NCBI GenBank assembly: GCA_018816865.1
Contig: JAHIUW010000032.1
Coordinates: 1 to 64,000, forward strand
Reading direction: 5' to 3'
DNA length: 64,000 nt
Source of the DNA: Pseudomonadota bacterium
GTDB lineage: Bacteria > Desulfobacterota > Desulfovibrionia > Desulfovibrionales > Desulfovibrionaceae
Each line of letters opens with the position of its first letter. Positions within the stretch are counted from its first letter, which is position 1. The position numbers and the translations under genes are program-made. The notes below the pieces were generated by a model. The model saw nothing but the letters and a program-made list of their open reading frames with translations, did no database searches and was not told the origin of the DNA. Of this stretch, positions 27,306-38,316 are shown in pieces.

Positions 27306-28502
27306 TCAATTCTCCTCGCGGATCAGTAACAGATGGACGTTTGCGCGGGTCTTGATGTGCCCGGCGAAATACTCGACGTCATCACCACTGCCGCAGTAGT
27401 AATCGATGCGTGTGCCCTGGATGGCCCCGCCGGCATCCTGGGCCAGGCCGATGCCCGAGACCGGACGGCCAAGGCTGCCGAAGGACTCAGGCGGCATCAG
27501 GGCCGTAAAGGCCAGCACCGAGCCGAGTGGCAGGAACTTCGGGTCTGTAGCCATGCTGACCCGCGGCGTCAACAACTTGCCCATGGAGCCGAAGGGTCCC
27601 TTGTCCCCCAGATGGAAAAAGACATAGCTCGGGTTGGTGGACAACAAGTCCTTCACATCCTCGGGATGCGCGGCCAGAAATTCGCGGATGACCTTCATGC
27701 TCATGCCTTCCATGGGCAGCAGCCCCCGATCCGCCAGCACACGCCCCAGGCTGACGTACTTGTGCCCGTTCTTGCCGGCGTACAGGGCATAACGAGTGCT
27801 GCCGTCGGGATACCGGAGCAGTCCGGAGCCCTGGATGTGCAGGAAGAAGACGTCCGTCAGATCGCGCACCCAGGCGAGTTCCAACCCCCTGCCTTTCAGG
27901 GCCCCCTCGAAATCAATGGCCTTGCGCCCATGATAGGGGACGGCCTTGCCGTCCTCGATACGGTAAACAAGCTTATCTCCATCCCAGCGGTGATGGAACG
28001 CGCCCAGATTCAGCACCTGCATGTCATCGGGAATGGCATACAGGGGATACTTGAACTCCTCGCTGGGCACGGGGCTGGCATCCAGATACGGGGCGTAATA
28101 GCCGGTCATGAGCGGGTCTTCAGGCCCAACCCTGAACCACTCAAAGCGCTGCGCCAGCAGTTCGGGATGCTTGTCCAATTGGGGCAAAAGGCGCAACAGT
28201 TCCTCAATGGTCGCTCTCAGCCTGTCCCAGGTGACGAGCACCCCGTCCTGATTCACGGCGGTGCCGTCCACGGGACGCGCGGCCACATACGCCAAACTGC
28301 GTTCAAGCCCCGTTCGTAGTTCCTCCCACGAGGCCAGATTCTGAGACCGCGGGTCCAGCAAACGCGCCTGGGTCTGGGCCGAGGAATCGGAAATCGGTGT
28401 CAGAGGCCGGGAAATCTTGCTCTGACAGCCTATCAGCAACAGGATCAGGGACACGGCAGCCAACAGCACAGCCAATCGTCGCAAGCTCTGCATCTTCATC
28501 AT
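27306..28502 (-). CDS. mltA: membrane-bound lytic murein transglycosylase A
   Basis: Cleaves peptidoglycan glycan strands to 1,6-anhydro muropeptides at the outer membrane. With the start at 28502 the protein begins MMKMQSLRR and has a lipobox LLIGC (Cys26), giving a lipoprotein of 398 residues; the open frame continues 64 codons upstream without a signal peptide. MltA features include PLMTGYYAPYLDAS near residue 135, VFFLHIQGSGLLRYPDGS, and the 3D domain with DAGGAIQGTRIDYYCG near the end. It lies downstream of nadK with 58 bases between. Confidence 0.93.
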   Translation of the reverse strand: MMKMQSLRRLAVLLAAVSLILLLIGCQSKISRPLTPISDSSAQTQARLLDPRSQNLASWEELRTGLERSLAYVAARPVDGTAVNQDGVLVTWDRLRATIEELLRLLPQLDKHPELLAQRFEWFRVGPEDPLMTGYYAPYLDASPVPSEEFKYPLYAIPDDMQVLNLGAFHHRWDGDKLVYRIEDGKAVPYHGRKAIDFEGALKGRGLELAWVRDLTDVFFLHIQGSGLLRYPDGSTRYALYAGKNGHKYVSLGRVLADRGLLPMEGMSMKVIREFLAAHPEDVKDLLSTNPSYVFFHLGDKGPFGSMGKLLTPRVSMATDPKFLPLGSVLAFTALMPPESFGSLGRPVSGIGLAQDAGGAIQGTRIDYYCGSGDDVEYFAGHIKTRANVHLLLIREEN

Positions 28503-28560
28503 GTGGCCGTTCCTAATAGTGGTTGATGGCGAGACAATATCACTGAGACCCGGAAAAAAG

Positions 28561-29409
28561 CTATTCGATGACGCCCTTGGCCCGCAGCCGGGAGACATAG
28601 GCCGAACGTTCGGGCTCCAGCAGTCTGAGTCCCGTCTCGGCACGCACGATGCGCACCACGTCATCCTTGTGCAGGGGAAAACAGGTCTGCCCATCCACGG
28701 TCAGATAGACCTCGGAATGGGGCTCCTCAACACGCACGGTGAACTCCGAACTGCCGGGCAGGACCATGGGCTTGAAGTTGTGCAGGAACGGACAGATGGG
28801 GGTTACGGAAAACACTTCCAACTCGGGATGCACGATGGGTCCGCCAGAAGAGATGGAATAGGCCGTGGAGCCCGTGGGGGTGGCAATCACCAGGCCATCG
28901 GCCCGCATGCTGCCCAGGGGTTCGCCGTCCTGCTCAAGCCCCAGGCGGATGAGCCGCGCCAGGCTGCCCCGGTTGAGAACCACGTCGTTGATGGCCAGCC
29001 CGCCGTGGACCACCGCCTCACCCCGCTGTACCTCGTAGCGCAACACCAGACGTTCGGAATAACGGCAGCACCTGGCCAAAACCCTTTCCAGAAAACCCCG
29101 CCAATCGCTGGGGCTCAGTTCCGTCAAAAAACCCAAGCGCCCCATGTTCAGGCCCAGCATGGGCGCCCGCCCAGCCACCTGCCGGGCCACAGCGATCATG
29201 GTGCCGTCGCCGCCCAGAACCAGCACCAGGTCGCAGCCCTCCACGGGCAGCACCTCGGCAGTATCGGTTCCATCGTGTTCGGCGGACAAGGCACACACGC
29301 CTCTGCCCTCCAGCCAGAGCCGGATTTCCTCAACCAGGGCAGGAGCATCGGGGTGTCCGGCCCGGGAAACGATCAAAACGCGTTGCAATTTCTCGGTCAT
29401 AGTGAACAT
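28561..29409 (-). CDS. nadK: NAD kinase
   Basis: Phosphorylates NAD to NADP. The 282-residue protein shows LVLGGDGTMIAVAR near residue 65, LGLNMGRLGFLTE near 90, and SGGPIVHPELEVFSVTPICP in the C-terminal beta-sandwich. Two starts are possible, at 29409 and 29400 (MTEKLQRV); spacing from TCTAGAG favours the latter slightly. It is the first gene of the nadK-mltA-DUF4254 unit and divergent from the flgM operon. Confidence 0.94.
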   Translation of the reverse strand: MFTMTEKLQRVLIVSRAGHPDAPALVEEIRLWLEGRGVCALSAEHDGTDTAEVLPVEGCDLVLVLGGDGTMIAVARQVAGRAPMLGLNMGRLGFLTELSPSDWRGFLERVLARCCRYSERLVLRYEVQRGEAVVHGGLAINDVVLNRGSLARLIRLGLEQDGEPLGSMRADGLVIATPTGSTAYSISSGGPIVHPELEVFSVTPICPFLHNFKPMVLPGSSEFTVRVEEPHSEVYLTVDGQTCFPLHKDDVVRIVRAETGLRLLEPERSAYVSRLRAKGVIE

Positions 29410-29578: not shown

Positions 29579-29998
29579 GTGTCAGCAGCTCATTCCTACG
29601 ACGCCCGCAGAATGCTCAAAACCTATGGCAGGCAGCTGACAAGCGCCCGTCGTCTGGCACGATTCAAACAGTCCCTCGCCGCGGCGGGAGCCGAGGAAGA
29701 GGTCACCATTTCGCGTCTTGCCAAGCGCAGGATGCTGGTAGAACAGGTGGCCAGAGAGATTGTGGAAAATCTCATCGTCTCGGGAAGCGAGAATGAGGTG
29801 GTCCAGGCAATTCTGCAAGAACTGGATGGCGAGTTTGGGGAAACTTTCCGCTTTCAGTATCCGCCCGCCGAGGTGGACCTGCAGATATTCCGACTCGTCG
29901 GAGATGCCCAGATGGAAGTAATCGCCCCTGAAAAACAAAATGTGTTCAACCGCCTCTGGGAACTCACCCTGGAAAAGGTCAACGACACGATGCTTTAG
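29579..29998 (+). CDS. FlgM-associated protein of the DVU0524 type
   Basis: A 139-residue protein with a GTG start preceded by AGAGGGAAC. It is basic at the N-terminus (RRMLKTYGRQLTSARRLARFK), helical, and ends in NRLWELTLEKVNDTML. Genes of this type stand directly before flgM in Desulfovibrio-like genomes and are named after DVU0524. The role is unknown; a link to flagellar late-gene control is inferred from position and the sigma-28-like promoter. flgM follows after 23 bases. Confidence 0.8.
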   Translation: MSAAHSYDARRMLKTYGRQLTSARRLARFKQSLAAAGAEEEVTISRLAKRRMLVEQVAREIVENLIVSGSENEVVQAILQELDGEFGETFRFQYPPAEVDLQIFRLVGDAQMEVIAPEKQNVFNRLWELTLEKVNDTML

Positions 29999-30021: not shown

Positions 30022-30321
30022 ATGGAAATCAATGGATTAATCAACGGGATCAAGGGCTACGACCGGGTCGACAAGACCACTTCGTCTGCCAAGAAGGGCA
30101 AGGGATCCACATCCCAGGCTTCTCTGCAAGGCGATTCGGTCCAGGTCTCCAGCGAGGCCCGACTGGTCGCTGGCGCGATGTCCGAAGCGCAGAGCGCACC
30201 GGACATCCGCCAACAAAAGGTCGATGAATTGAAGGCCCTCGTTCAGTCGGGCGAATACGTGCCCGACCTCAGAAAGACTGCGGCCAAGATCGTGGAAGAG
30301 GACCTGGAACTGCTTATTTAG
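30022..30321 (+). CDS. flgM: anti-sigma-28 factor FlgM
   Basis: Binds and blocks sigma-28 until the hook is finished and FlgM is exported. The 99-residue protein has the flexible Ser/Lys-rich N-terminal half expected for an exported disordered protein. The conserved C-terminal half carries [10 protein letters not shown], then [26 protein letters not shown] supports the start. Its last 8 bases overlap the end of fliW on the other strand, so late transcripts of the two operons would be antisense at their ends. Confidence 0.93.
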
Positions 30322-32687: not shown

Positions 32688-34808
32688 CTAATTCTTTATG
32701 CTCAAAAGGACCTGCATCATCTTGTCAGCCGTAGTCACCAGCTTCGAGGCCGCAGTGTAGGAATGCTGAAACTTCAGGAGATTGGCCATCTCCTCATCGA
32801 GGTTCACGCCTGCGGTCTCCTGCTGTCTGGTGTTCAGGTCGTCGGCCAGGGTCTTGTTGAATTCCAGATTGAACTTGGCTGAGGAGGTATCGGCGCCGAT
32901 ACCCGCAACCAAACCGGAGTAGTAGGCCCCGAGGGTCTGGTTCACGGGTCTTTCGGAGTTGACGTTGATGGTCACCACCTTGTCCTTCAATTGGGCGATG
33001 CTCAAGGCCGTGGTATTGTCGCCGGAATTGATCTCTCCTGTACCGTTGGCGTGTCCGCTGGCGATGAAATCGAGGTCCGAACGGACCAAGGTGGTCATTT
33101 CCATGCTGGCCGCATCCTTGCCCTCGAAGAACGTATTCACGCCGAGAGCCGCGGCCAGTCCTGCGGTATCGGTGCCGAATCCGAACTCGTACCCATCATT
33201 GGCATCGATCCGCACCCGGTTGTTGACGATGTCCGCGGTCACGAAGGTGCCCCAGGTATTGTTGATGGCGTCGACCACGTCGTCCATGGAGTGCACCGAG
33301 GCGTCGAAGTTGGCATTGCCCCCGAAATTCAGAGAACCGAAGGACGCACCCGACGCCAGCTCACCGCTGGCCTTGTCATAGAAAAACAGCGTCATGTTGC
33401 CGTCTTGCAGCTTGTCGAAGAAATCCAGGCCGGAGCCGTTGCTGCCCAGAGCGGCGGAGGTGGAGTCCACGGTGTAGGTGCCGGTGACGGAGTCGAACTT
33501 CTGCAGGCCCATGCCCTGGCTCTGCAAACGATTGACCTCCCAGATCAAGGACTTGGAAAAGCCATCCAGCTTGTCCAGATAGCGCCCCACATGCTGGTCC
33601 CTGAACTGGAAATACCCGGCCAGGGCTCCGCCGGTCAGGCGCTGCTCGTTGTCTGCGCCATTGGCGAAGACCTGTGTGGTGATGTTTTCCTTGGAGGAGG
33701 TCGTGCGATACCAGTACAGCGCCTTCTTGGGCACCACGGTAAACTTGTCGCCCACCTCAAGGTCACCGCTGGGCGTCCCGCCGGAATCGGTGGCGGAGCC
33801 AAACCAGATGGTCAAGTCACCCACGGTGGTCTTGCCATCCTCGGGCCGGGCCGCGACATGCGTTTCGTTGCCGTCATCATCGGTCAGCCAAGTCTTGCCC
33901 CCATCCAGGGAGACCCGCATCATGGCGGCGCTGCCCGCGTTGGAGACCTGGCCGCTGCCGATGACCTCAAAGGTGTACTCGAAGTCGTCGGAACCGGAAA
34001 AATAGATATCGCCGTCGAAATTCGAAGTGGCGGTCAAGGCCTTCATGGATTGGGCATTCTCAAAGCCCAGCGAGAAGGTCACGGTGCCGTCCACAAGGGT
34101 CTGTCCGGCCTTGGTCCAGACCGTGAACTCGCCGCCGCCATTGTCCACGTAGTCGATGCCGATCTTCTCGGACAACTCCCGCACCAACAGCGCCCGCTTG
34201 TCCTTCAACTCGTTGGCGTTGTTCTGTCCCGGCACGTCGTGGGACTGGATCTGCAGGTTCAAATCCGCGATATCATCCAGGATGCCGTTGACCTCATCCA
34301 CTTCCTGGGCAATGAACTCGTTGATCTGATCCTGCTGGCTGCGCAGGTCCTGCCGCACGGTATGCAAGGTGGACAACAGGTTCTGCGTATTGCCGGACAA
34401 GGCCTCACGCGCAGCGATCAGCGCCGGGTTGTTGGCCATTGACTGCCAGTCCCCCCAGAACTGGGACAGAGCCTCATTCATTCCTGCAACCTGGCTTTCG
34501 TTGAACAGGCTGTCCACGGCACGCAGGTTCTGGTAGGTGGCATCCCAACGGAACTGTTGGGCGTTCTTGTCGACGAACTGTTCCTCGACGAAATCATTGA
34601 AATAGCGAAAAACCTCAACGGTCTTGACCCCGGTGCCCAACTGACCGGGATTGAAATCGATGGAATGTGCCTCTTCAAGGCGCACGGCCTGGCGCGCATA
34701 GCCAGGGGTGTTGACGTTGGCAATGTTATTGCCCGTCACCTCGATGGAGGCCTGGCTCGCAAACAGCGCGCCCTTGCCGATATCGAGAAGGGTCGTCAGA
34801 CCGGACAT
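32688..34808 (-). CDS. flgK: flagellar hook-associated protein 1 (FlgK)
   Basis: First hook-filament junction protein. The N-terminus has the rod/hook-type motif ASIEVTGNNIANVNTPGYARQ (split: SIEVTGNNIANVNTPGY). The C-terminus ends NLLKFQHSYTAASKLVTTADKMMQVLL. At 706 residues it is long for the family. A beta-rich module at about 272-362 with RVSLDGGKTW and LEVGDKFTVVP resembles the repeats in FlgL. Its start overlaps the last base of flgN, so translation is likely coupled. Confidence 0.95.
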   Translation of the reverse strand: MSGLTTLLDIGKGALFASQASIEVTGNNIANVNTPGYARQAVRLEEAHSIDFNPGQLGTGVKTVEVFRYFNDFVEEQFVDKNAQQFRWDATYQNLRAVDSLFNESQVAGMNEALSQFWGDWQSMANNPALIAAREALSGNTQNLLSTLHTVRQDLRSQQDQINEFIAQEVDEVNGILDDIADLNLQIQSHDVPGQNNANELKDKRALLVRELSEKIGIDYVDNGGGEFTVWTKAGQTLVDGTVTFSLGFENAQSMKALTATSNFDGDIYFSGSDDFEYTFEVIGSGQVSNAGSAAMMRVSLDGGKTWLTDDDGNETHVAARPEDGKTTVGDLTIWFGSATDSGGTPSGDLEVGDKFTVVPKKALYWYRTTSSKENITTQVFANGADNEQRLTGGALAGYFQFRDQHVGRYLDKLDGFSKSLIWEVNRLQSQGMGLQKFDSVTGTYTVDSTSAALGSNGSGLDFFDKLQDGNMTLFFYDKASGELASGASFGSLNFGGNANFDASVHSMDDVVDAINNTWGTFVTADIVNNRVRIDANDGYEFGFGTDTAGLAAALGVNTFFEGKDAASMEMTTLVRSDLDFIASGHANGTGEINSGDNTTALSIAQLKDKVVTINVNSERPVNQTLGAYYSGLVAGIGADTSSAKFNLEFNKTLADDLNTRQQETAGVNLDEEMANLLKFQHSYTAASKLVTTADKMMQVLLSIKN

Positions 34809-35287
34809 TAAGATCTCCCTCTAAAAAGGGCTGCCTCGGGGCGATGATTCTGGTAGCGACCGTTCTTGGCGTAGGTATCCTTGTTCTTGGGCTGAATCTG
34901 CTTGTGGATGAAATCCAGCATATTCTTGCTCTGCTCGGCCAGGGCGAATGCCATGCGGGAATTCTTTTCCGCCAGGATCGCGCACTTCTGTTCCAGGGTG
35001 TCCACAAACAGCAGAAACGCCTCAAAACCTTGTGCATCGTCGACATCCAAGGTCGGAATCAAATCCCTGAGCGACGTGGCCTCCGGGGCCACCGTGGACA
35101 CCATGCCCTTGAGTTCGAGCCGTTCGCCAGCCAATTGCTTGATCAACTCCTGGATGGAAAACTCGCAGCCGGTCACAGCCTTGGGATCCCGACCAGTCAA
35201 GTGGGTAAATTCTTCCTCAAGCAGCGAGCTCAACAGCAAGAGCCCCTTTTCCTGGCGATGGAGATTGGCCTTGATTCTCTCCAGCAT
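34808..35287 (-). CDS. flgN: FlgN-like flagellar export chaperone
   Basis: A 159-residue all-helical protein with the heptad-like pattern of FlgN, which keeps FlgK and FlgL soluble before export. Position directly upstream of flgK and 13 bases after flgJ supports this. Sequence identity of the family is low, so the call rests on length, helical composition and context. Confidence 0.82.
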   Translation of the reverse strand: MLERIKANLHRQEKGLLLLSSLLEEEFTHLTGRDPKAVTGCEFSIQELIKQLAGERLELKGMVSTVAPEATSLRDLIPTLDVDDAQGFEAFLLFVDTLEQKCAILAEKNSRMAFALAEQSKNMLDFIHKQIQPKNKDTYAKNGRYQNHRPEAALFRGRS

Positions 35288-35300
35288 TTGTCGACCCCAC

Positions 35301-36449
35301 TCAGTTATTGTTTGACCCCGAAGCTACGGCCTGCACACGTTCCCGGACAACTCCCGGGTTCCAGGCCTGCTCACCCTTTCTGATTTCGAAATACAGTCTG
35401 GGCTCACCTTCTTTTCCGGTCTCCTTCAACTCTGCAATTTTGCTGCCAGCCTTCACCTGATCGCCATGGGAGACCAGGCTCTTGCCCACCTGGCCATAGA
35501 CCGTGCGCCATCCGTCGGGATGTTCGAGAACGATGGTCTGGCCCTGGTCACCCCGTTCGCCGGAGAAGACAACCGTGCCATCCCATCCAGCCTGGACCGC
35601 ATCGCCCTGGGTCCCGGCGATCTCAACACCCGAGCGCCAGACGCGCTCGCCCGACGCCTTATCGGTCTGCCAGCCAAAACCGCTGACGATCTCACCCTGC
35701 ACGGGCCAAGTCAGTTCACTGAGCATCCGGGTTTGGATCACGCCTTGTTGCGCGCCAAACACCGCAGCGGCACGGGCGTCGCCCATCTCGATGCGCGCGG
35801 CGAGATTCATGGCGCGGTTCATGATTTCCGGCGGGCTTGAAGCCGCGGCGCGGATCGTGGGATCGGTGTCAGCCAGGGGATTGAAGTCGGGTTCCAGGCT
35901 CGTCTGGTCTGTTTCAGCGGGCCCAAGCCGGCGGGCCGACATGTTCTGCAGCACCAGTCCTGCCTGCTGCAAGGCAATGGCTCGTTGCGTCTCCTCCGGG
36001 GACCTGATTTCAGTCTCCTGCTTCAGGGGCAGCCCCTTCTCAGGCTCACCCTCAGCCCCGGCCGCAGGGGTCGGGATGCTCCGGGTGCGAGCCCCACTCG
36101 CCTTGGCGGCCAGCTGGTCCTTGAGTTCGTCGTAGAGCATCTCTCCCAGCCCGATGCCTCCGGCCTCGGTCATCTTGAGCGACAGTTCGCGGTCGAACAT
36201 CGAGAGGTAGGCGTCCTCCTCGCGACTGTGCAGGTAGCCCTCCTTGGGCACATTCTTGCGCATCTCCTGCCACAGCTTGCCGACGAAGATGGCTTCGAAG
36301 CCCTGAGTCGCCTTGCGCAGTTTGGCGTCATCGCCTTCCGCGGCCTTGAGGCTATTGCGCACCTCATCCATGGCCAGCTTTTGCCGCACCTCGGACGGGG
36401 TACCGCCGGTCACCATGGGGGACCCGGTATCAAGCTTGGAAGGGATCAT
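35301..36449 (-). CDS. flgJ: FlgJ-type rod scaffold fused to a degenerate LytM (M23) domain
   Basis: Residues 25-115 form the FlgJ N-terminal rod-binding domain (KATQGFEAIFVGKLWQEMR, EDAYLSMFDRELS), which caps the growing rod. In place of the C-terminal glucosaminidase of enteric FlgJ it carries a LytM/M23 fold at about 245-365 (PVQGEIVSGFGW to RLYFEIRKG). Neither zinc motif is intact: the HxG...D site reads RSGVE (Arg272, Glu276), and the HxH site reads RLY (Arg351, Tyr353). It therefore probably cannot cut peptidoglycan itself. Known dead LytM proteins (EnvC, NlpD) activate amidases; a similar role here is inference. 382 residues; no signal peptide. Confidence 0.85.
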   Translation of the reverse strand: MIPSKLDTGSPMVTGGTPSEVRQKLAMDEVRNSLKAAEGDDAKLRKATQGFEAIFVGKLWQEMRKNVPKEGYLHSREEDAYLSMFDRELSLKMTEAGGIGLGEMLYDELKDQLAAKASGARTRSIPTPAAGAEGEPEKGLPLKQETEIRSPEETQRAIALQQAGLVLQNMSARRLGPAETDQTSLEPDFNPLADTDPTIRAAASSPPEIMNRAMNLAARIEMGDARAAAVFGAQQGVIQTRMLSELTWPVQGEIVSGFGWQTDKASGERVWRSGVEIAGTQGDAVQAGWDGTVVFSGERGDQGQTIVLEHPDGWRTVYGQVGKSLVSHGDQVKAGSKIAELKETGKEGEPRLYFEIRKGEQAWNPGVVRERVQAVASGSNNN

Positions 36450-37598
36450 TTACATGACCTCCAGATCCGCGTGCAGGGCACCTGCGGTCTTCAGCGTCTT
36501 CAGGATCGAAATCAGATCCCGGGGAGTGGCACCGATGGTATTCAGACCATCGATAAGCTCTTGCAGGGTCGCACCCTCCATCATCACCAGACGCTTGTTG
36601 TCTTCCTGAACGCCAATCTCGGTCGTGGGGGTGGCCACGGTCTCGCCCGCACCGAACGGAGCGGGCTGCGACACGTCGGCCCCTTCCCGAATCACGATCT
36701 GCAGATTGCCGTGAGCCACAGCCACCTTGGACAGGCGCACATTACGCCCGAGCACCACGGTGCCGGTCTTCTCATCCACGACCACCTTGGCCTTGGCATC
36801 CGGGCTGATCTCGAGATTTTCCAGAGACGCCATCAGCGGCACGAGATTGCCCCTGAATTCCTGGGGCACCCTGAGCCGCACGTTGGAAACATCGTCGGCC
36901 TTGGCGTATTCCTGACCCAGGGTCTCATTGATAATGTTCACCACACTCATGGTGGTGGAGAAATCAGCCACATTCATCTGCAGCGTGAGTTCATCCTGGC
37001 TGTTGTATTTGAACGGAACCCCTCGCTCCACGGTGGCGCCGTTGGGCACACTGCCCACTGTGGTGATGTTCTTCTGGGCGGATGCGGCGGCGCCCTGCAC
37101 GGAGACACCACCCAGGGCCAGGGCGCCCTGAGCCAGGGCGTAGACGTTGCCGTCCACACCGCGCAGGGGCGTGAGCAGCAGGATGCCACCCAACAGGCTC
37201 TGGGCATTGCCCAGTGAAGACACGGTGACATCCAGCCGCGAACCCGGCTTGGACGAAACCGGCATGCGCGCGGTGACCATGACGGCCGCCACGTTCTTGG
37301 GCTTTAGCTGGGCCTGATCCACAGCCACTCCCAAACGATCGAGCATACTAACCATGGACTGGATGGTGAACTGCGAGCCGCTGCTCTTGTCGCCGGTACC
37401 GGAAAGACCCACCACCAGGCCGTAGCCCACCAGGGAGTTGTTGCGCACCCCGCCGAAACTGGCGAGGTCCTTCAGGCGAACGGCATCAGCCGGCACGGGA
37501 CACAGCAGCCCCGCCAGCAGGACAGCCACTGCCACCAGCACAAAGGCACGAAGCCGCTGCGGCGTTTGCGTTGATTTCTTCATGGATGCGGTCTTCAT
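36450..37598 (-). CDS. flgI: flagellar P-ring protein FlgI
   Basis: Periplasmic protein forming the P-ring bushing in the peptidoglycan layer. Start at ATG 37598 with AGGAG upstream; a longer frame adds 9 codons without support. A signal peptide runs to about [14 protein letters not shown]. Family motifs include [19 protein letters not shown] and the C-terminal EVM end with [19 protein letters not shown]. Length 382 is standard. It abuts flgJ and follows flgH by 10 bases. The presence of P- and L-rings confirms a Gram-negative envelope. Confidence 0.96.
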
Positions 37599-37608
37599 GC
37601 GCGGTCTC

Positions 37609-38316
37609 CTAGAACGGCCAGACATTTTCCAGAATCCTGGTCAGCCAGCCCGGACGCTGCTTGTCGGCAATCACGCCCTGGCCGTAGTACTCGATCTTGG
37701 AGTCGGCCAGATAGGTCGAAGCGATGGTGTTTTGCGGACTGATGTCCTTGGCCCTGGCCAACCCCCGAACAACGAGAATCTGAGTCTCGTTGTTGACCTT
37801 GATCTCGCGAGCGCCCTCGATCTGAAACAAACCACCAGGGAGCACGCGCACGACCCGCGCAGCCAAGGTGGCGGACACGGTGGACTCGCGATTGGTCTCG
37901 CCGTCACCCTCGAAGGCACTGGTGGCGCTGGACTGGATCATCGGGGTGGCCCCCACGGCTCCGACCAGACCCGCGGACTGCCCCAGAGGGATCAAGGCGG
38001 CCTCCTGCTTGCCAAACCAATTGCTGATGCCGAAGTTCATGCTGGACTTGCGGTCGGCGGTGGTGTCCGCCTTATGCTTGCCCTTGGAGGACTCGATGAT
38101 GTTGACCATCACCACGTCGCCCACGTTGCGGGCGCGGTTATCGCCGAACAGATAGTTGGCCTCGCCCGGATCATACAAGGATCCGGGATTTTCCTGCGGC
38201 GGAGGGGCTTCCGCCACGGGCAGGGTCAGCACGGGCGCAGGCGCCGAAGTGCGTGCGGCCGTCTGGCATCCGGTCAGGGCCAGAATGCAGATCATCGCCA
38301 GCATCCATATCTTCAT
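37609..38316 (-). CDS. flgH: flagellar L-ring protein FlgH
   Basis: Outer-membrane lipoprotein ring around the rod. Start at ATG 38316, spaced 7 bases from AAGGAG; a TTG two codons upstream is less likely. Lipobox ALTGC (Cys17). The core contains [24 protein letters not shown] (in part), then [26 protein letters not shown] (in part). 235 residues, standard. Confidence 0.96.

Follow-up and report, generated by a model that had tools for sequence, protein, structure and literature searches.

We conclude that the LytM half of the FlgJ protein encoded in the window (the whole 64,000-nucleotide stretch of DNA that was analysed, from the genome of a sulfate-reducing bacterium of the Desulfovibrionaceae) is probably a functional, non-catalytic binding module, a reading to which we assign a probability of roughly 0.8. 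In our proposal this half would be a former M23 zinc endopeptidase: exported with FlgJ, presumably to the rod tip, it would no longer cut the wall, and its emptied cleft would dock and switch on a separate enzyme, most plausibly an AMIN-Amidase_3 amidase handled in the manner of EnvC, NlpD and DipM. It is known for few bacteria how the rod crosses the wall if FlgJ itself does not cut. The setting, a pseudo-protease in the rod scaffold with an active form in a sister species and held by selection, looks new within the literature searched, in which we recognised by title no description of a dead LytM domain within FlgJ. The features discussed are collected in Table 1.

Table 1. Positions in the window of flgJ, its parts and the neighbouring genes discussed
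Feature	Positions	Strand	Basis or remark
flgJ, rod scaffold with degenerate M23/LytM domain	35301..36449	-	ATG start, 382 aa
Rod-binding domain, residues 61-107	36129..36269	-	Pfam PF10135
Linker, residues 116-244	35718..36104	-	highest dN/dS of the three FlgJ parts
M23/LytM domain without zinc site, residues 245-370	35340..35717	-	Pfam PF01551, model, structural alignment
R272, replaces first zinc-ligand His	35634..35636	-	family alignment
E276, replaces second zinc-ligand Asp	35622..35624	-	family alignment
Q320, replaces catalytic His of YGH	35490..35492	-	family alignment
R351-L-Y353, replaces HxH zinc motif	35391..35399	-	family alignment
flgN	34808..35287	-	Pfam PF05130
flgI (P ring), immediately upstream of flgJ	36450..37625	-	Pfam PF02119
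flgM, between the flgJ gene run and nadK-mltA	30022..30321	+	Pfam PF04316
mltA-type lytic transglycosylase ORF, probable real start near 28500	27306..28694	-	Pfam MltA PF03562 and 3D PF06725

FlgJ is identified as the rod scaffold by its Rod-binding match (47.9 bits against a cut-off of 25.1, and the only such match in the 3.64 Mb genome) together with its place between flgI and flgN in a flg run that reads, on the minus strand, flgF-flgG-flgA-flgH-flgI-flgJ-flgN-flgK-flgL-csrA-fliW (csrA was assigned from a reading of its translation). The Peptidase_M23 match covers residues 273-365 (82.9 bits, cut-off 28.7), and the linker before it is modelled with pLDDT below 50 at 121-148, 174-196 and 198-203. 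No signal peptide is apparent on inspection by eye; FlgJ leaves the cell through the flagellar export channel. The FlgJ of Enterobacterales shares the N-terminal rod-binding domain and the flg operon position but has a C-terminal glucosaminidase (PF01832) where the present protein has the dead M23 domain; PF01832 is absent from this FlgJ and from the genome at E up to 0.001. The NCBIfam equivalog for the dual-domain enteric protein, TIGR02541, gives 55.5 bits against a cut-off of 193 and matches residues 35-130 only. The Salmonella enzyme is described as a β-N-acetylglucosaminidase (PMC7705223, cited, like the other papers below, from excerpts of its text), a wording that differs from the muramidase of the original prediction.

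All five positions of the active-M23 signature (HxxxD, HxH and the catalytic His) are replaced within a domain whose M23 fold is recognised by Pfam, by the model and by structural alignment. The family alignment sets W-R272-S-G-V-E276 against W/F-H-x-G-x-D in intact relatives, and P-R351-L-Y353-F-E against P-H-L-H-F-E. That FlgJ carries an M23-like domain with its zinc motifs changed at Arg272/Glu276 and Arg351/Tyr353 had been predicted correctly, residues and numbering included; the four zinc-ligand changes stand, and the fifth change, that of the catalytic His, had been overlooked. The same five letters, REQRY, occur in the 80% identical FlgJ of G001, the sole other genome of the genus in the kinship lists, and a sequencing error is therefore very unlikely as their source. 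Zinc-dependent hydrolysis by an M23 enzyme is chemically implausible with these ligands replaced, and we regard the loss of zinc-dependent catalysis, as judged from the aligned residues, as near certain.

The domain descends from an active family. The comparison covers 147 FlgJ ORFs in retrieved loci (some genomes occur under two names, and contig ends truncate a few ORFs). An M23 domain is present in 82, by a model built from 15 of these, and absent from 65, with no M23 remnant in any of the 65 at E < 0.1 with either model. Once identical proteins are removed, 74 distinct fusions remain, of which 57 have an intact HDHHH site (a raw count of 58 includes one non-FlgJ paralog), two lack one ligand and 15 are dead; because they were drawn by similarity to the present FlgJ or to A1, these numbers are no census. 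Eleven of the intact fusions come from outside Desulfovibrionales (L122, L126-L129, L131, L135, L137-L139 and L149). The fusion is common in Desulfovibrionales and also found in other families of the phylum, and the idea that it is peculiar to this genome was rejected. These direct relatives share the architecture of the present protein and, in the majority, differ from it in having HDHHH for REQRY. The intact site, the commonest state among the fusions read, is presumably ancestral, and since most of them retain it, catalysis was lost secondarily in the present FlgJ; the original prediction, made without relatives, missed that most fusions stay intact. It has been proposed (PMC8517470) that delta-proteobacteria use two separate proteins rather than a dual-domain FlgJ, which is at odds with the fusions read here.

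The loss can be placed on a tree of FlgI, FlgK and FlgL (1563 columns, 13 genomes; FlgI is partial in G021, G015 and G604, the data for G019 and G604 contain no FlgL, and the branch of G604 is long), in which (G508,(G000,G001)), G000 being this genome, has support of 100/100 and (G506,G507) of 100/99. HDHHH is complete in the sister genome G508; provided that the five residues never revert, the loss of catalysis postdates the divergence of this genus from G508. G506 and G507 lack only the first His of HxH, and G027, which the FlgI tree puts in the same clade, has a FlgJ without M23. One clade spans intact, half-dead, dead and absent domains, and such variety among close relatives makes the question testable by domain swaps between sister species. 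The other dead lineages are placed elsewhere, namely G016, and G019 with G008, plus G017 and several Desulfovibrio sp. records (FlgI tree). The three concatenated proteins reject a single clade of the five dead genomes (p 2e-27) and a grouping of G000, G001 and G016 (p 1e-95). The M23 tree computed without the catalytic columns requires three changes; its AU test does not reject one clade of the 15 fully dead rows (p 0.54) and weakly rejects this genus with G016 (p 0.047). In the rod-domain tree (48 of the 74 rows) the G016 FlgJ is next to the group of this genus and G508 (92/95), and neither grouping is rejected (p 0.43 for all dead rows, 0.11 for the genus with G016). As far as these sequences go, a minimum of three losses follows from the FlgI/FlgK/FlgL trees if flgJ was not itself transferred, and a transfer of flgJ alone is a possible event that would reconcile the conflicting trees. 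This genus and G016 have R-E-R-Y in common at the zinc ligands; by the genetic code each of the four changes is a one-nucleotide step, and convergence on the same letters is therefore not very improbable. Derivation of the M23 half from the EnvC-like protein of this genome was considered and rejected, as the domain of that protein (L007) does not group with L008/L009 in the M23 tree, where it has a very long branch and an unsure placement.

The model of the LytM domain (pLDDT mostly 92-98, 79 at 341-350) has the fold of its family. Its top structural match is the hydrolase 9gy1 (Z 20.4), followed by the LytM domain of EnvC (4bh5: Z 18.9, rmsd 2.1, 125 residues aligned, 35% identity), DipM (7qrl, Z 18.9), ShyA (18.7) and the EnvC of the AmiB complex (8c0j, 18.5). 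Z hardly differs between active and dead LytM domains, and the fold thus identifies a LytM domain and not which kind; the comparison with EnvC and NlpD that had been suggested bears out an EnvC-like LytM fold and gives no distinction between a dead activator and an active enzyme. FlgJ does have the combination found in LytM activators, a LytM fold with the zinc ligands lost. In the alignment with the K-12 sequences Y353 corresponds to Tyr401 of EnvC, R351 to the Arg of the NlpD RLH and R357 to R405 of EnvC; R272 could match either W320 or K321 of EnvC, a one-residue ambiguity. K321 and R405 act in amidase activation (PMC10336132), and roles are described for W320, V324 and Y401 (PMC11627006). 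R357 is no signature of EnvC, however, since it is conserved in intact relatives as well. Like the present domain, the LytM domain of E. coli EnvC is dead, has Tyr for the last His and has, by our model, the same fold, but EnvC has a coiled coil where FlgJ has its rod-binding domain. NlpD of E. coli shares the Arg at the first His of HxH but retains the Asp and the catalytic His, neither of which is left in FlgJ. DipM of Caulobacter also has a dead LytM domain, whose groove docks several autolysins (PMC10336132), but it is not joined to a flagellar domain. The curated NCBIfam models for these activators all score FlgJ below their cut-offs (EnvC 69.1/270, NlpD 56.4/311, DipM 63.6/740, ActS 52.8/375 bits). 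This genome encodes a separate EnvC-like protein, in which R272 and Y353 are matched by Arg and Tyr; its gene is followed by those for a CtpA-type S41 protease and a Polysacc_deac_2 protein, an arrangement that recalls envC-yibQ of E. coli K-12 and suggests that division probably has its own adaptor.

By analogy with EnvC, NlpD and DipM, the FlgJ module may dock and activate an AMIN-Amidase_3 amidase, a step that we put forward tentatively, at somewhat less than even odds. In AmiB a regulatory helix moves upon EnvC binding (PMC11627006), and an AmiC helix has been modelled in the DipM groove (PMC10336132). The search for amidases that had been advised found two Amidase_3 proteins in the genome, L038 (AMIN + Amidase_3) and L039 (TPR + Amidase_3). 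The aligned length of the L038 model is 218 residues for AmiA, 200 for AmiC, 194 for AmiB and 209 for 3ne8, against 173-183 for the compact amidases 4rn7, 5emi, 7tj4, 1jwq and 7rag. Its helices 134-142 and 148-169 fall in the stretch to which this length difference was assigned, where confidence is lower (mean pLDDT 90.3, 58-74 over 111-150, helix 134-142 at 58-70 by block). Z does not separate the compact from the AmiA-like amidases (4rn7 29.8, AmiA 28.1). The pattern of aligned lengths is what one expects of a LytM-controlled amidase, with putative extra helices like those of AmiA/B/C. The amidase domain of L038 (L038:1489-2205) aligns with an insert of about 14 residues after GHGGRDPGA, which L213 (G506) shares, L214 (G027) being shorter; match lengths of 669-672 nt, where most AMIN-type matches span 627-630 nt, suggest such an insert in G001, G507 and G508. 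Amidase_3 occurs in all 30 genomes searched, with two copies in G000, G001 and G507, one in G508 and G506 and one each in the other six dead-FlgJ genomes (G016, G019, G008, G017, G586, G588); several intact ones have two or three. Among these 30 genomes (FlgJ state read for all except G501 and G505) amidase number does not rise across the dead-FlgJ lineages. Vibrio fischeri mutated in amiB fails to swim in soft agar (PMC3948606); the authors blame mainly cell chains, and because this morphological defect is held to be the main cause, the observation lends no support to a flagellar amidase.

We consider it unlikely, though worth weighing, that FlgJ recruits a lytic transglycosylase in place of an amidase. 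The LytM domain of DipM, which works with SdpA/SdpB, binds SdpA and AmiC and stimulates both (PMC10336132), and single-domain FlgJ is paired with flagellar transglycosylases: the B. burgdorferi protein binds an SLT enzyme, and with its LTase, as with SltF of R. sphaeroides, wall cutting is possibly outsourced (PMC8517470), as it may be here. The single-domain proteins have no hydrolase half, whereas the present FlgJ has one, inactive by its residues. Five SLT-family matches are found in the genome, none of them on the flgJ contig. An mltA gene lies after nadK on the same strand as flgJ and 6.6-6.8 kb away, and its product, a candidate alternative cell-wall cutter, looks like an outer-membrane lipoprotein by its LIGC motif. 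A co-transcribed muramidase, which the original prediction held would tell against it, is not seen in the gene layout, as flgM on the opposite strand separates mltA from flgJ. A 139-aa ORF adjoining flgM (29579-29998, plus strand) has no Pfam match. MltA has a match in 26 of the 30 genomes; in nine the match is on the flgJ contig, no more than about 10 kb from flgJ (draft contigs may hide more): G508, G476, G048 and G052 with intact FlgJ-M23, G506/G507 (half-dead), G000/G001 (dead) and G027 (no M23). As it is also linked to flgJ in relatives with an intact domain, mltA does not track the loss, and no hydrolase gene tracking catalytic loss was found by MltA linkage in the 30 genomes.

The case that the dead domain still has a function, as the binding-module reading demands, comes from selection. 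In the G000-G001 pair, the one genome pair on which the result rests and one with dS near or above 1, the M23 domain has a dN/dS of 0.062 (bootstrap 0.028-0.114), the rod domain one of 0.082 (0.031-0.168) and the linker one of 0.139 (0.062-0.236). Because both genomes carry REQRY, their divergence on the simplest reading postdates the loss. The ratio of dN in M23 to dN in the rod domain is 1.00 (0.48-2.49), inside the 0.45-1.95 range of the intact pairs listed (M23 identity 0.60-0.93 in the pairs listed for this ratio). These values support strong purifying selection on the dead domain in this genus, which is not decaying; the low dN/dS argues that it probably does something here. Constraint focused on the old active site was not found in this pair: 4 of 40 near positions differ against 13 of 82 others (p 0.28), near being within 6 residues of a catalytic residue, the five catalytic ones left out. 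A focus suggested by counting by eye was not upheld by this test. A fold (by model) and a constraint kept without catalysis would also suit a peptidoglycan-binding anchor, in which the emptied cleft still binds stem peptides and keeps the rod cap in place at the wall while an unrecruited enzyme makes the hole; substrate-binding residues could be conserved for anchoring alone, and other cutters are at hand in the SLT-family and MltA proteins. We nevertheless find this improbable, as the dead LytM domains whose roles are described in the literature consulted, EnvC and DipM, are protein activators (PMC10336132, PMC11627006).

Still less probable is a relic, in which another enzyme opens the wall, catalysis has gone and the domain is only now decaying. 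Elsewhere the data lean that way: in a second dead lineage M23 changes more quickly than the rod domain (dN ratio 1.3-6.0 in the 19 pairs listed, the interval exceeding 1 in 16; the pairs come from nine FlgJ, L046, L047, L058, L062, L063, L072 and L074-L076, share sequences and are non-independent, and L012, L026, L030 and L033 are absent from them), and the domain there seems to be loosening. This lineage, with L012, L030 and L033, comprises D. cuneatus and other Desulfovibrio records and has Asn/Lys for the first His and YGN/YSN for YGH. The many FlgJ without M23, that of G027 in the same clade included, likewise suit a relic, but the domain of this genus, with its low dN/dS and a dN ratio like that of intact pairs, does not. 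A purely structural role, the domain capping or spacing the rod with no ligand, would account for constraint spread across the domain and unfocused on the old active site but is very unlikely, as relatives manage with a low-complexity tail or a FlgJ of 174-200 aa.

Returning to the amidase, we regard its recruitment, by analogy, as a reasonable and leading, if unproven, mechanism. The original prediction, that the rod opens the wall by recruiting an amidase instead of cutting, is favoured by the loss of catalysis, the retention of the domain, the amidases in the genome and the lack of any glucosaminidase match there, and has against it that amidase number does not rise and that constraint is not focused on the site; none of the computed results, amidase counts, active-site constraint and fold match included, ties FlgJ to an amidase. 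If this reading is true, cell division and flagellar assembly would draw on one hydrolase, each by way of a dead-enzyme adaptor of the same kind, and a repeated conversion of enzyme to adaptor would be traceable within one gene. It is doubtful, but conceivable, that several Desulfovibrionaceae lineages separately turned a rod-tip protease into an EnvC-like docking module that calls a division amidase, this genus and G016 arriving at the same R-E-R-Y.

The FlgJ proteins without M23 have recurrent C-terminal sequences of their own. In many Desulfovibrio proteins (most of L089-L120, and L148) an Ala/Gln/Pro-rich tail replaces the M23 domain and ends in [IV]P[PT]L[TS]; this pattern, chosen after the tails had been seen, occurs in the last 60 residues of 26 of 35 long ORFs (at least 390 aa, some of them close relatives), whereas shuffled tails contain it in 0.024 of 35 on average. 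The peptide is possibly a docking peptide that replaced the M23 domain. By eye, two further end peptides recur, one resembling LEEALRVVRMD in L027, L070, L071, L078, L079 and L082 and the other GRR(F/L)A.IG in L031, L083, L085, L086, L092, L130 and L132.
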